A stretch of DNA of 64,000 nt from Proteiniborus ethanoligenes (GTDB lineage Bacteria > Bacillota > Clostridia > Tissierellales > Proteiniboraceae), in contig NZ_FNQE01000013.1 of the NCBI RefSeq assembly GCF_900107485.1, positions 1 to 64,000 on the forward strand, given 5' to 3'. How positions within the stretch are numbered: position 1 is the first letter of the stretch; each line of letters begins with the position of its first letter. The notes under the pieces were generated by a model that saw only the letters and a list, made by a program, of their open reading frames with translations, was not told where the DNA came from and searched no databases. Below, piece by piece: positions 11,327-41,920 of the stretch. The translations under genes were made by a program, and so were the position numbers.

Positions 11327-11350
11327 AAGGGAATTTAGCAGGGGGAAAAT

Positions 11351-11396
11351 AAAAAGATTCAGGTCTAATGATTACTTTAAGACCTGAATCTTTTTA
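11351..11396. terminator. Bidirectional terminator
   Basis: Stem aaaaagattcaggtct / agacctgaatcttttt with a 14-base loop between the convergent phosphoesterase and small thioredoxin-like genes. A-rich and T-rich flanks let it work both ways; the minus-strand gene's stop codon (11394-11396) lies in its arm. Confidence 0.9.
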
Positions 11397-11639
11397 TTTA
11401 CTAAAGGCTTTATTTAATATTTCTATCATTTCTAAGAAATTAGGTACTCTACCCTCAAGGACTATTTTACCATTTATCATCATAGCAGGAGTTTTATTAA
11501 TACCCAGCTCAGATAAAATTTTAGGATTTTCTATTAGCTCATATCTATAGTTCAAATTCATTCTCTTTAATGCCTCATCAACGATGGGGGCTAATTTATT
11601 ACCGCCTCAGCAAACCTCATTTAAAAGCTTAATATCCAT
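11394..11639 (-). CDS. Thioredoxin-like small protein, candidate selenoprotein (in-frame TGA)
   Basis: An 81-residue thioredoxin-fold protein if TGA at 11607-11609 is read as selenocysteine. ATG at 11637-11639 follows ggaggg by six bases. The product starts MDIKLLNEVC, then Sec-11, then GGNKLAPIVDEAL, and goes on through NPKILSELGI to the cis-proline loop NKTPAMMINGKIVLEG and RVPNFLEMIEIL, i.e. a complete beta-alpha-beta-alpha-beta-beta-alpha Thioredoxin_3-type domain. The TGA sits exactly at the redox-active loop next to Cys-10, and the frame continues cleanly for 70 codons beyond it. A hairpin 15 bases after the TGA fits the bacterial SECIS rules. Normal CxxC is replaced by Cys-Sec-Gly-Gly. 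A nonsense mutation is the alternative, but the intact frame and good ribosome site argue against decay. Confidence 0.78.
11572..11609 (-). promoter_or_regulatory. Candidate bacterial SECIS element
   Basis: On the minus strand the UGA (11609-11607) is followed after 15 bases by gcccccatc-guu-gatgaggc (11591-11572). Pairing: GCC/GGC, one C-A mismatch, C-G, one bulged C, AUC/GAU, with apical loop GUU. The loop starts 24 bases after the UGA with G then U, which meets the known bacterial SECIS pattern (apical loop 16-37 bases downstream, G in its first two positions). SelB would bind it to insert selenocysteine. Confidence 0.68.
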
Positions 11640-11787
11640 GAAAAACCCTCCAATTTTTTTATTGTTTTTACAATCAATAAAAATAATATATATCTATTAT
11701 AGAATTATTTACTTAAATATTCAATTCTATATAGAAGAAGGCTATATTTAAATACTAAATAAAACAAATAAGCTTTTTGTAATTATA

Positions 11788-15639: not shown

Positions 15640-16743
15640 ATGGTGATAAAATGCATCCATACAGGAGATATCCATCTTGGTATGGAGTTTAAAAGCGCAA
15701 GCTTTGATAAAAAACAGGCCAACACAAGAAGACTTGAGCTGTGGGAAACCTTTAATAGAATTATAGATAGATGTAAAGAGATAGGAGCACATATTTTACT
15801 AGTAGCAGGAGATTTATTTGAAGATGATTATTGCACAATATCAGATATTAAAAGAATAGACTCTATGTTTAGAGAGATAAGTGACACAAAAGTTATTATA
15901 TCAGCAGGAAATCACGATACTCTTGGTAAAAGGTCCCTATATAAACTGATAAAATGGGGAGATAATGTTCATATTTTTGAGCCTAATACTGTGTCAAAGC
16001 TAGAGTTAGGGAGCTTAAATACTGTCGTTTGGGGTCTAAGCTGGGATAAAAAGCTTGAGCGACAAAGACTTATTGATGGTATTAAAGTAGAAGATAATAG
16101 TAAAATCAATATTTTACTAGCTCATGGAGATGCTTTAAGCAAAGAATCTAGCTATTTGCCAATAGATAAAAACAGACTAATAAATAGTGGTTTTGACTAT
16201 ATAGCATTAGGGCATATTCATAAGCATCAATTTTTAAGCCCAAATATTTGCTATTGTGGCAGTCCCGAACCTCTAGACTTTGGTGAAACAGGCAGTCATG
16301 GAATTATAGAAGGACAAATATCAAAATATAATACTGAAATGGAATTTAAGCCATTTGCTAAAAGAAAATTTATTATTAAAGAAATAACTATAAACGAGAA
16401 TATAGACTATAATGAAATAATAGATATAATTAAAACTATTGACAACAAAGAAAGCAGAGATATGAATCTCTACAGAGTAGTTCTATCAGGTACAAAGGAT
16501 AGAGATATTGAAGTCAATACAGAAGACTTAAAAGAATATCTAAAAAATGATTTTTACTATATAGAAATAATAGATAATACTACTCCTGATTATGATTTGG
16601 ACAAGATATATATGGAGAATTCTAATAATATTCTAGGATTGTTCATAGAAGAAATGAGAAATAAGGGATTAGACAATGAAATAGTAAAAGATGCACTATA
16701 CTATGGACTTGAAGCATTACTAAGTGAGAAGGTGAAGAAATGA
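15640..16743 (+). CDS. SbcD/YhaO-like DNA exonuclease subunit
   Basis: A 367-residue Mre11/SbcD-type metallophosphoesterase. Active-site blocks: GDIHLG (9-14), AGDLFEDD (about 56-63), GNHDTLG (about 93-99), AHGDAL and GHIHKHQ (about 190-196). A C-terminal cap domain of about 120 residues follows. The gene overlaps the next, an SbcC-like ATPase, by four bases (ATGA); together they should form a DNA-end processing complex that cleaves hairpins or blocked ends. It is closest in layout to the YhaO-YhaN pair of Bacillus. The start ATG follows ggaggtg. Confidence 0.88.
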   Translation: MVIKCIHTGDIHLGMEFKSASFDKKQANTRRLELWETFNRIIDRCKEIGAHILLVAGDLFEDDYCTISDIKRIDSMFREISDTKVIISAGNHDTLGKRSLYKLIKWGDNVHIFEPNTVSKLELGSLNTVVWGLSWDKKLERQRLIDGIKVEDNSKINILLAHGDALSKESSYLPIDKNRLINSGFDYIALGHIHKHQFLSPNICYCGSPEPLDFGETGSHGIIEGQISKYNTEMEFKPFAKRKFIIKEITINENIDYNEIIDIIKTIDNKESRDMNLYRVVLSGTKDRDIEVNTEDLKEYLKNDFYYIEIIDNTTPDYDLDKIYMENSNNILGLFIEEMRNKGLDNEIVKDALYYGLEALLSEKVKK

Positions 16744-18917
16744 TTATAACAGAACTTTTTCTAAATTCCTTTGGAAAGTTCAAGAACAAAACTATTACTC
16801 TAAAGGATGGATTTAATATTATATATGGAGATAATGAAGCAGGTAAGACTACAATTCATAAATTTATCGAAGGAATGCTTTTTGGTTTTTTTAAGCCTTA
16901 TAGCAAAAAAAGAATATATTCTGAGGACTACGATAGATATTTACCTTGGGATTATCCAGAATATAGCGGAATACTTAAATGCATAATAAATGAACATGCT
17001 TTTAGAATAGAAAGAAATTTTTTAAAGGGGAGTGATGAAGTAAAAATATTTGATGAAGAAACTGGTGAAGATATAAGCCATATTTCCGAATACGATAATA
17101 TAACTAGGCTTCATCAGCCAACGACCACCTATATGGGATTAAATAGCACCGTATTCAATAATACAATATCAATTAGTCAGGGGAATAGTAAATCTGAGGA
17201 GGCTTTATCAAAAGAGGTAAAGGACAGCTTAATAAATTTAGGAGGCAGCCTAGACGAGGATATTTCCATTAAAAAGGTATTAGAGAAGCTTGATGAAAAA
17301 ATCAACGATATAGGAACTGAAAAACGAATTAAAACCTCACCTTTAGGTAAAGTTGTTGAAGAAATAGAAAAGCTGGAAAAAGAAAAGGAAAAGGCATTAT
17401 CCATTTCAATAGAAGTTAAAGACTATCAAGAAAAGGCAAATTCTCTTTTAGAAGAAATAAACCAGTTAAATGTAAAGAAAAATGAAATTGAAAACAAGAT
17501 AAATCTTTTAGAGATTTACCAAGCTTTTCAAAAATATGAGAAAAGCAAGGAGTTATTAGAGGAAATAAATGAACTAAAAGTACAATTAGATGAATATGAA
17601 AATACTAAGGATTTAATCCTGTGTAATTCTAAGGAGAATAATCCTATATTTAATAATAAGAACATAAACGAAAAGCTATATAAATATGAAGAACTAGAGG
17701 AAGAAAAAAACAAACTATTATACAATAATGAATATAATAGCCTTATGTTTTTAAATACTAGAGCCGAAGAAAAATTACGCAGTTTGAGAAAAATGAATAT
17801 GATAAAAATAATTTCTGTTATGGGAATTATAGTAAGCTTTTTACTTGGGCTTAAGATTTCTAAAACCATATACTATATTTCAGTTTTTCCCTTTGTAGTC
17901 CTCGTATATTCTTTCTTTTCATCTAAAGAACTAAATAAGTATGTTAGAAATTTAAAGCTTCAAATTGGAGAGATGGAGGGAAAAGACAATAGCAGAAAAA
18001 AGACAATAGAAGAGCTAGAAATAGAAATGGAGGATATACTAAAAATATTTAAGTGTAAAACAAAGGCTGATTTAAGAAGGTTGGCTATTGATATAACTGA
18101 AAAGGATCTTACTGTCAAAGATGATCTAGAGAAAAAGAAAAGCTATGAAAGGCTGTCACAGCTACTAGAGAGTAAAAAAAGCTTATATAATAATATATTA
18201 GATAATTATAGCATAGAATTTTTAAGAAAAAAATCAGAAGGCTTTACAGAAGCAATGGAACAGAGTGTAGAAGTCCTGGATAAACAAACATTATTGGAGG
18301 ATTTAAGCAGCATAAATGATATAATAATAGAAACAAAGGATGAACTCACAAGGCTTGAAGAAAAAATTAGGTTTTTAAGCAATTTAACAACTGAATTAGT
18401 TCAAATTGAAGAAGAAATAATAAGAAAAAAGAATATGCAAAATGAATATGAAAATAGAAGAGAGGCCTTAATCCTTGCAAGAAGCACTATAGACAAAATA
18501 TCTAAAAACATTCAAAGGGATTTTGCACCTAAATTAAACAGCATGGTTGGAGAGATTATTCAAAGTATAACATCTAATAAATATCATGATGTTAAAATAA
18601 CTGAAGGCTTAAATATAAAAGTAGTAGATCCTAGAAACAATAAGCTGGTTGATGTAGAAAAGCTAAGCTGTGGAACTATTGATCAGCTATATTTTGGTAT
18701 GAGGCTTGGAATTATTAATATAATAAAGGGAGAAAACAATCTTCCTCTTATACTAGATGATTCTTTTGTTCAGTATGATTATGATAGATTAGAAAACATA
18801 CTAAAGCTATTATCTAAAGAAGGCTTGAAAAGACAGATAATATTATTTACTTGTCATGAAAGAGAAAAGGAAATACTTAATAAACAAGGTGTAAATTTTA
18901 ACCTAGTTAATCTATAA
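16740..18917 (+). CDS. SbcC/YhaN-like AAA ATPase with central membrane helices
   Basis: A 725-residue SMC/Rad50-type ATPase. N-terminal Walker A GDNEAGKTT (30-38); C-terminal signature LSCGTIDQLYFGMRLGI (about 641) and Walker B LPLILDDSFVQYD (about 666-678) with the terminal switch FTCHEREK. The middle is two long coiled-coil stretches rich in Glu and Lys. Between them, at about residues 352-393, lie two hydrophobic segments where Rad50 has its zinc hook; no CxxC hook is seen there. This is the YhaN-like variant, which would tether the complex to the membrane. Shorter than SbcC (about 1050). Coupled to the nuclease subunit upstream. Confidence 0.85.
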   Translation: MIITELFLNSFGKFKNKTITLKDGFNIIYGDNEAGKTTIHKFIEGMLFGFFKPYSKKRIYSEDYDRYLPWDYPEYSGILKCIINEHAFRIERNFLKGSDEVKIFDEETGEDISHISEYDNITRLHQPTTTYMGLNSTVFNNTISISQGNSKSEEALSKEVKDSLINLGGSLDEDISIKKVLEKLDEKINDIGTEKRIKTSPLGKVVEEIEKLEKEKEKALSISIEVKDYQEKANSLLEEINQLNVKKNEIENKINLLEIYQAFQKYEKSKELLEEINELKVQLDEYENTKDLILCNSKENNPIFNNKNINEKLYKYEELEEEKNKLLYNNEYNSLMFLNTRAEEKLRSLRKMNMIKIISVMGIIVSFLLGLKISKTIYYISVFPFVVLVYSFFSSKELNKYVRNLKLQIGEMEGKDNSRKKTIEELEIEMEDILKIFKCKTKADLRRLAIDITEKDLTVKDDLEKKKSYERLSQLLESKKSLYNNILDNYSIEFLRKKSEGFTEAMEQSVEVLDKQTLLEDLSSINDIIIETKDELTRLEEKIRFLSNLTTELVQIEEEIIRKKNMQNEYENRREALILARSTIDKISKNIQRDFAPKLNSMVGEIIQSITSNKYHDVKITEGLNIKVVDPRNNKLVDVEKLSCGTIDQLYFGMRLGIINIIKGENNLPLILDDSFVQYDYDRLENILKLLSKEGLKRQIILFTCHEREKEILNKQGVNFNLVNL

Positions 18918-33951: not shown

Positions 33952-34106
33952 AAAAGCCTCTTTCAAATGAAAGAGGCTAAATTGCATACACTATCTATCC
34001 TTTCTCATCTATCAGCATATTATGCTGCTGGAATTAGCACCTCGTGTTACACAACACCGGTTGCTGGGCTTCATTGGGCCAGTCCCTCCGCCTCTCTTGA
34101 TAAGAG
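33952..34106 (-). promoter_or_regulatory. SAM-I riboswitch (S-box) with terminator
   Basis: On the minus strand: ctcttatcaagagaggcgga, then gggactggcccaatgaagcc, cagcaacc, ggtgctaattccagcag and gatagatgaga: every conserved block of the S-box aptamer (34106-34003). P1 forms between ctcttatc and gatgaga. It is followed by a terminator hairpin gcctctttc-atttg-aaagaggc (33977-33956). High SAM should stop transcription of metNIQ; low SAM lets it proceed. The whole gap 33849-34264 is otherwise occupied by the promoter below and the leader of the coat gene. Confidence 0.96.
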
Positions 34107-41674: not shown

Positions 41675-41699
41675 AGTTATAATAACATATTTAAATCAA

Positions 41700-41920
41700 T
41701 GAATGAGAGTAGTAGACATTTTTTCTAGCCAAAGCGATTCAGGGATGGTGCAAGCCTGAAGCTTAGATATTTGTTGAATGGACTCATGAGTTTAAGCTTG
41801 AAATAGCAGTAAAGCTTAACGGGAATCTACCGTTATAGATAGAGGGAGTCATTTGACTAACTAGAGTGGTACCGCGGAATCAGCCTTTCGTCTCTTATTG
41901 AGATGAGAGGCTTTTATTTT
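41700..41920 (+). promoter_or_regulatory. Tryptophan T-box leader
   Basis: A T-box riboswitch. The specifier loop reads gaatggac with the Trp codon TGG at 41779-41781; the T-box sequence aactagagtggtaccgcgg is at 41859-41877; the terminator agcctttcgtctc / gagatgagaggct with T run is at 41882-41920. Uncharged tRNA-Trp pairs with TGG and the T-box bulge, favouring the antiterminator and trpS expression. This accounts for most of the gene-free 41506-41974. Confidence 0.96.

Follow-up and report, generated by a model that had tools for sequence, protein, structure and literature searches.

The question raised by this locus is whether a minus-strand reading frame of Proteiniborus ethanoligenes that is interrupted by a lone TGA encodes a selenoprotein and, if so, what its selenocysteine (Sec) might do. 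The frame lies in the window analyzed here, a stretch of DNA of 64,000 nt, a preliminary description of which had noted an 81-residue thioredoxin-type frame with TGA at codon 11, a ribosome site in front of it, and a hairpin with an apical GUU 24 bases after the UGA, and had called the product a probable selenoprotein in which a vicinal Cys-Sec pair replaces CxxC. The following features were assigned to the locus.

11394 to 11639, minus strand: Sec-containing coding sequence of 81 residues, with Sec at position 11 and the stop codon TAA at 11394 to 11396, based on the translation and 34 homologous genes
11607 to 11609, minus strand: UGA codon (residue 11), predicted to be read as Sec, aligned with UGA in 34 of 34 relatives and with TGC (Cys) in the relative L050
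11572 to 11591, minus strand: bSECIS-type hairpin GCCCCCAUC-GUU-GAUGAGGC, with the apical loop GUU starting 24 nt after the UGA
11487 to 11489, minus strand: cis-proline codon (Pro51); two alignments show the proline as invariant among subfamily members and CxxC relatives alike
11647 to 11651, minus strand: ribosome binding site GGAGG, separated from the ATG by 7 nt
11696 to 11724, minus strand: possible own promoter TTGAAT-17 nt-TATAAT, a consensus match only
11347 to 11399, no strand assigned: perfect 20-nt inverted repeat flanked by A/T runs, probably serving as a bidirectional terminator for both this gene and the convergent phosphoesterase gene

When TGA is translated as U, the product reads MDIKLLNEVCUGGNKLAPIVDEALKRMNLNYRYELIENPKILSELGINKTPAMMINGKIVLEGRVPNFLEMIEILNKAFSK, the frame contains that single TGA, and both the translation and a match to Pfam family PF13192 agree with the frame as first described. 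The GGAGG 7 nt from the ATG likewise bears out the ribosome site, and GGAGG-like sites also precede the genes of most relatives. Promoter-like sites upstream of the Sec gene were no more numerous than in shuffles of this AT-rich stretch. The 20-nt inverted repeat overlaps the stop codon; beyond it lies the convergent gene, which encodes a calcineurin-type phosphoesterase, and upstream of the Sec gene is a gene for a metallo-beta-lactamase-fold protein. Since a ribosome binding site, a promoter-like site, and an inverted repeat at the stop codon are all in place, the frame looks to be a complete single-gene unit, of which a gene caller using translation table 11 reports only a 55-amino-acid fragment.

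Selenocysteine machinery was located by family searches of the P. ethanoligenes genome. SelA (636 bits) and SelB (363 bits) are encoded by adjacent genes on the same contig, and a tRNA-Sec with the anticodon TCA is found on a different contig. The selD gene adjoins selA on its upstream side (L001, contig 39 of G000) and has an in-frame UGA of its own, in the motif SSGUAAKI. Thus selA, selB, selC, and selD, for which the preliminary description had suggested a search, are all present in the same genome, indicating at the level of sequence that the organism uses selenocysteine. As a separate observation, selD is itself another selenoprotein gene, which a standard caller would start too late, at a TTG. 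Four other genomes (G209, G210, G211, and G636) each contain, in addition to the normal tRNA-Sec gene, another tRNA-Sec-like gene that scores about 50 bits and is possibly a duplicated or divergent UCA tRNA.

Bacterial SECIS elements are hairpins that lie shortly downstream of the UGA and carry a G where the apical loop begins. The hairpin in the window lies downstream of the UGA, has a G at the start of its apical loop, and overlaps codons 17 to 23 of the Sec gene, such that the conserved PIVD segment of the protein doubles as the hairpin. Nearly all members of the family have a stem of the GCCCAUC / GAUG.GGC kind, with a small loop about 24 nt past the UGA (30 nt in a subtype with two extra residues) and with G as the first or second loop nucleotide. 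Among 16 distinct sequences, 11 cells were altered on both sides of a pair, versus 2.6 in shuffles, and the covariation score was 0.318 versus 0.147 when shuffled, a level reached by none of 500 shuffles. Shifting the pairing partner by 1 to 3 columns abolished the covariation signal, and one stem pair was found as C-G, U-A, A-U, and G-C. Because shuffles ignore the relatedness of the sequences, a protein-preserving control was added, in which synonymous codons were redrawn with the codon usage of the window applied to all genes. Under this control the mean z-score was -1.86 for 19 Sec genes versus -0.26 for 17 CxxC or Cys genes (Mann-Whitney P value = 2.5e-5); the window gene taken alone gave a P value of 0.035, and five Sec genes (L027, L028, L029, L030, and L051) had weak z-scores. 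The stem uses CCC and ATC, which make up 5.8% of the Pro codons and 5.0% of the Ile codons, respectively, in the window. The Cys form L050 does not have a strong hairpin (-3.4 kcal/mol; z = -0.95), and no Rfam model matched the hairpin of the window gene.

Relatives of the gene were sought in the order, the class, the phylum, one related family, and a related order and by one scan with a degenerate DNA pattern. These searches yielded 34 additional genes in which UGA occupies the same place, so that 35 genes in 31 genomes of several clostridial families, including the window gene, now belong to the set; since the genomes were sampled, the true number of carriers is larger. The DNA-pattern scan gave eight named carrier genomes in a collection of genome contigs in which an earlier scan with a single protein had returned no relatives. 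Carriers include Sporosalibacterium faouarense, Maledivibacter halophilus, Alkaliphilus transvaalensis, Alkaliphilus serpentinus, Thermohalobacter berrensis, Anaeromonas frigoriresistens, and Caloranaerobacter azorensis. The gene is absent from two other species of the same genus as P. ethanoligenes and is therefore patchily distributed. A search of viral contigs found no relatives, leaving a phage origin unsupported, and a PHROGs search gave no meaningful match. In six close pairs, dN over the half that follows the UGA was about 0.13 to 0.18 of dS, indicating that this downstream half is under purifying selection.

One relative, L050, contains MNIKIFEVVCCKGGKLEN... and has TGC exactly at the UGA codon. 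Its genome, G553, is a single contig in which neither tRNA-Sec nor SelA was found, and SelA was present in all four UGA genomes tested alongside it. Judged from these gene inventories, L050 and its UGA relatives are a Sec/Cys pair that tracks the decoding machinery, and L050 is the one clear case of a Cys homologue. No tRNA-Sec was found in the UGA carriers G202 and G206, both of which are fragmented drafts and both of which have SelA. A PF13192-like protein, L128 (genome G1033), with the loop NCCGSHGKRD, was not counted as a second Cys form because its loop spacing differs; it is possibly another Cys-Cys relative with a different spacing. Also seen was a second subtype with two extra residues in the loop (CUSTSxSK; L022:1187-1429, L023:1186-1428, L028:1483-1737, and L030:1489-1737); two genomes have it as a tandem neighbor of the main type.

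Together, these results indicate, with a probability that we put at about 0.93, that the gene encodes a selenoprotein and that UGA codon 11 would be read as Sec. The selenoprotein call of the preliminary description was thus upheld by the conserved UGA, the Cys homologue, the hairpin, the sel genes, and purifying selection. Its hairpin was recovered with the loop where it had been placed and with covariation and synonymous randomization in agreement; the homologue search that it had proposed returned TGA at codon 11 in relatives and Cys in L050; and of the two findings that it had named as contrary, missing sel genes and a decayed downstream half, neither was seen.

The product matches PF13192 over positions 1 to 75 of 76 (E = 5e-14; 52.5 bits versus a gathering threshold of 24.8). 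An AlphaFold model (pLDDT of 90.7) has the order strand-helix-strand-helix-strand-strand-helix and places Sec11 in the loop that precedes helix 1. A fold search with the model matched MTH895 (1ilo; Z of 8.6 over 74 residues at 2.3 A) and thioredoxins, and KaiB scored a Z of 9.5, so that the fold by itself does not separate a thioredoxin function from other uses. The nearest described relatives are the MTH895/ArsE "redox-active disulfide protein 2" proteins (TIGR00412, within PF13192), with which the window protein shares its size, fold, M-x-I-K N-terminal strand, and cis-Pro loop and which are co-encoded beside the Sec protein in relatives. It differs from them in that a [C/G/S/F]UGG-type loop replaces CxxC, with Gly in place of the second Cys, and in that the Sec proteins form a separate clade. 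Against TIGR00412 the window protein scored 43.4 bits, below the curated cutoff of 62, and its relative L079 reached 68.3. Identity to the CxxC relatives is 25 to 33%. In a tree built on few columns, in which the inner branching was unresolved, all 20 CxxC proteins split from the Sec set and L050 with support of 100/100, and several genomes hold Sec and CxxC genes side by side.

Other selenoproteins of this domain have been described. In Brachyspira, the Thioredoxin_3 selenoproteins Sec.1 and Sec.2 are clustered with a Cys homologue (Santesmasses 2017, PMC5330540); in the same work, their Cys/Sec column is column 26, in an N-terminal extension, the domain begins at column 53, and CxxC occupies columns 61 to 64. 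The window protein, unlike these, has no extension, its domain begins at residue 1, and Sec11 lies in the active-site loop. The two PF13192 entries given in the table of a 2026 review of prokaryotic selenoproteins (PMC13188914) are the Brachyspira proteins Sec.1 and Sec.2, and the review lists SaoT as a UxxC protein. As with SaoT (NF040730) and the SAO and Tso operons, a small thioredoxin-like selenoprotein is found, in relatives, near a selenium-dependent metal(loid) transport cluster; unlike SaoT, the window protein gave no match to NF040730 (NCBIfam, E <= 1). Because its Sec does not lie in an N-terminal extension and the SaoT model is unmatched, we class the window protein and its relatives as a putative loop-Sec subfamily of Thioredoxin_3, distinct from the PF13192 selenoproteins in PMC5330540 and PMC13188914. 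The subfamily may already have been named elsewhere.

An alignment of the 35 members places U immediately after the column of the first CxxC Cys and identifies it as the only invariant residue of the loop, whose consensus, in place of CxxC, is [C/G/S/F]-U-[G/S/A/D]-x. U is preceded by Cys in 25 members and by another residue in the remaining 10 (Gly in 8, Ser in 1, and Phe in 1); the second Cys of CxxC is replaced by Gly, Tyr, Phe, or other residues; and four members are entirely without Cys. Conservation across the subfamily is seen at Sec, the PIVD segment, and the cis-Pro. Since Cys is not conserved and four members lack it altogether, Sec would be the essential residue and the Cys-Sec pair would be optional.

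Gene neighborhoods in relatives suggest a setting in which the protein could act. In 13 relatives, the gene next to the Sec gene encodes a canonical MTH895/ArsE-type CxxC thioredoxin. A PF03773 permease is encoded nearby in 10, 9 of which also have an ArsR/SmtB regulator, and two more relatives have the regulator without the permease. Eight of these 10 permeases have an in-frame UGA of their own, in the motif SPFUSCS, and the other 2 have Cys at that position. The best NCBIfam match of the permease is SaoE (NF040736), at 127 or 107 bits; because these scores are far below the cutoff of 325, we term it SaoE-like and not SaoE. The SO_0444 family Cu/Zn efflux transporter (NF033936) is a selenoprotein with UxC according to PMC13188914, and the Sec of the permease in SPFUSCS is also in a UxC arrangement; it differs from SO_0444, however, in scoring 94 to 98 versus a cutoff of 300, and it is absent from the window. 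The Sec-containing ArsP_1 (PF03773) permeases themselves (L086:4435-5484, L089:7139-8119, L090:7320-8300, L091:7303-8283, L092:7205-8203, and also L114, L115, and L119) may constitute an unnamed subfamily of Sec permeases.

These clusters in relatives suggest a role in metal(loid) or organometal handling. The window Sec gene itself stands alone, no permease of this kind was detected in its genome, and the CxxC paralogue of that genome is on another contig, beside a gene for a CobW-like GTPase. Because the window copy lies outside the cluster and its genome yielded no permease, the metal(loid) role is least certain here. Apart from these genes, a YhaO/YhaN-like nuclease-ATPase pair is encoded in the window at 15640 to 18917 on the plus strand, and such a pair also lies within a few kilobases of the Sec cluster in L089 to L092, a hint of a conserved neighborhood.

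On these grounds we suggest the following mechanism. SelB and tRNA-Sec would decode the UGA as Sec, directed by the hairpin loop 24 nt downstream, to give a small Thioredoxin_3/MTH895-type protein with the thioredoxin fold, presumably located in the cytosol. In the predicted fold, Sec11 would presumably face the cis-proline and serve as the single essential reactive group, most likely in a mono-selenol redox relay in which the substrate attacked by the selenolate is a disulfide, a persulfide, or a metal(loid)-thiol compound. The intermediate could then be resolved by the co-encoded CxxC thioredoxin (in relatives), by Cys10 (in members that have it), or by a small thiol. Physiologically, the clustering of relatives with ArsR and the ArsP/SaoE-like permease would point to detoxification of metal(loids) or organometals. 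A mono-selenol relay resolved by another thiol is the most economical mechanism that the whole subfamily could share, and we advance it, along with the metal(loid) role, tentatively, as a reading whose chances fall at or slightly below even.

The main rival is that Sec11 acts as a metal(loid) ligand, in a chaperone that would bind As(III), Hg(II), or an organometal and hand it to the ArsP/SaoE-like permease. The association of relatives with ArsR and a PF03773 permease that is itself a Sec protein in eight loci is consistent with such a role, as are a weak similarity to the ArsD metallochaperone (E = 0.02), the existence of Cys-free members, and the suggestion, in PMC13188914, that Sec in SaoB, SaoC, and UXX-star may be a metal ligand. 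However, the ArsR-permease cluster was not seen around the window gene or around most of the relatives, a lone Sec would supply one soft ligand only, and the cis-Pro and redox-loop layout of an oxidoreductase has been retained. We regard a ligand role as possible rather than probable.

A two-residue redox center made of the vicinal Cys10-Sec11 pair that the preliminary description had proposed, which would form a selenenylsulfide, appears unlikely. The pair is present in the window gene, as it had stated, and in most members, and L050 is Cys-Cys at the same positions, and so a selenenylsulfide may form in the window protein itself. Nevertheless, the 10 members with Gly, Ser, or Phe before Sec, and the four that are Cys-free, have kept the UGA, the hairpin, and the fold, and the pair is thus not required across the subfamily. 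The 35 sequences rule out the Cys-Sec pair as the defining active site, and its selenenylsulfide cannot be the shared mechanism, such that the claim held for the window gene but not as a conserved feature. Finally, two explanations without a selenoprotein are both extremely improbable: an ordinary stop after a 10-residue peptide followed by a relic would agree with the fragment reported by the gene caller but not with the identical place of the UGA in 31 genomes, the downstream purifying selection, the Sec machinery, or the covarying hairpin, and a CxxC thioredoxin of the MTH895/ArsE type with a sequencing error or point mutation would share the domain and the 25 to 33% identity but not the full separation of the CxxC genes in the tree or the presence of both kinds side by side in several genomes.

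The preferred reading, that of a relay built on Sec11, suggests a thioredoxin fold running on one Sec, in some members without a resolving Cys. Routine annotation would probably cut short or overlook the genes of this selenoprotein subfamily, and since Cys homologues are almost absent, searches relying on them would pass the subfamily over. The relatives tie selenium to an ArsR-regulated permease cluster and so lead to the hypothesis of a selenium-dependent metal(loid) or organometal resistance. We consider it an even chance that this is an undescribed subfamily with Sec as its sole reactive chalcogen and that it belongs in part to an ArsR-regulated, multi-selenoprotein export module for metal(loids) or organometals, related to but distinct from SAO, which would comprise a Sec permease, a CxxC thioredoxin, and one or two Sec thioredoxins.

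Elsewhere in the window, a T-box leader (41690 to 41898, plus strand) and a SAM riboswitch (34002 to 34106, minus strand) were both well over their Rfam gathering scores, and positions 1 to 294 on the plus strand look like the C-terminal end of an IS3-type transposase (FHSDRGFQYTNNSF...), cut by the start of the window.
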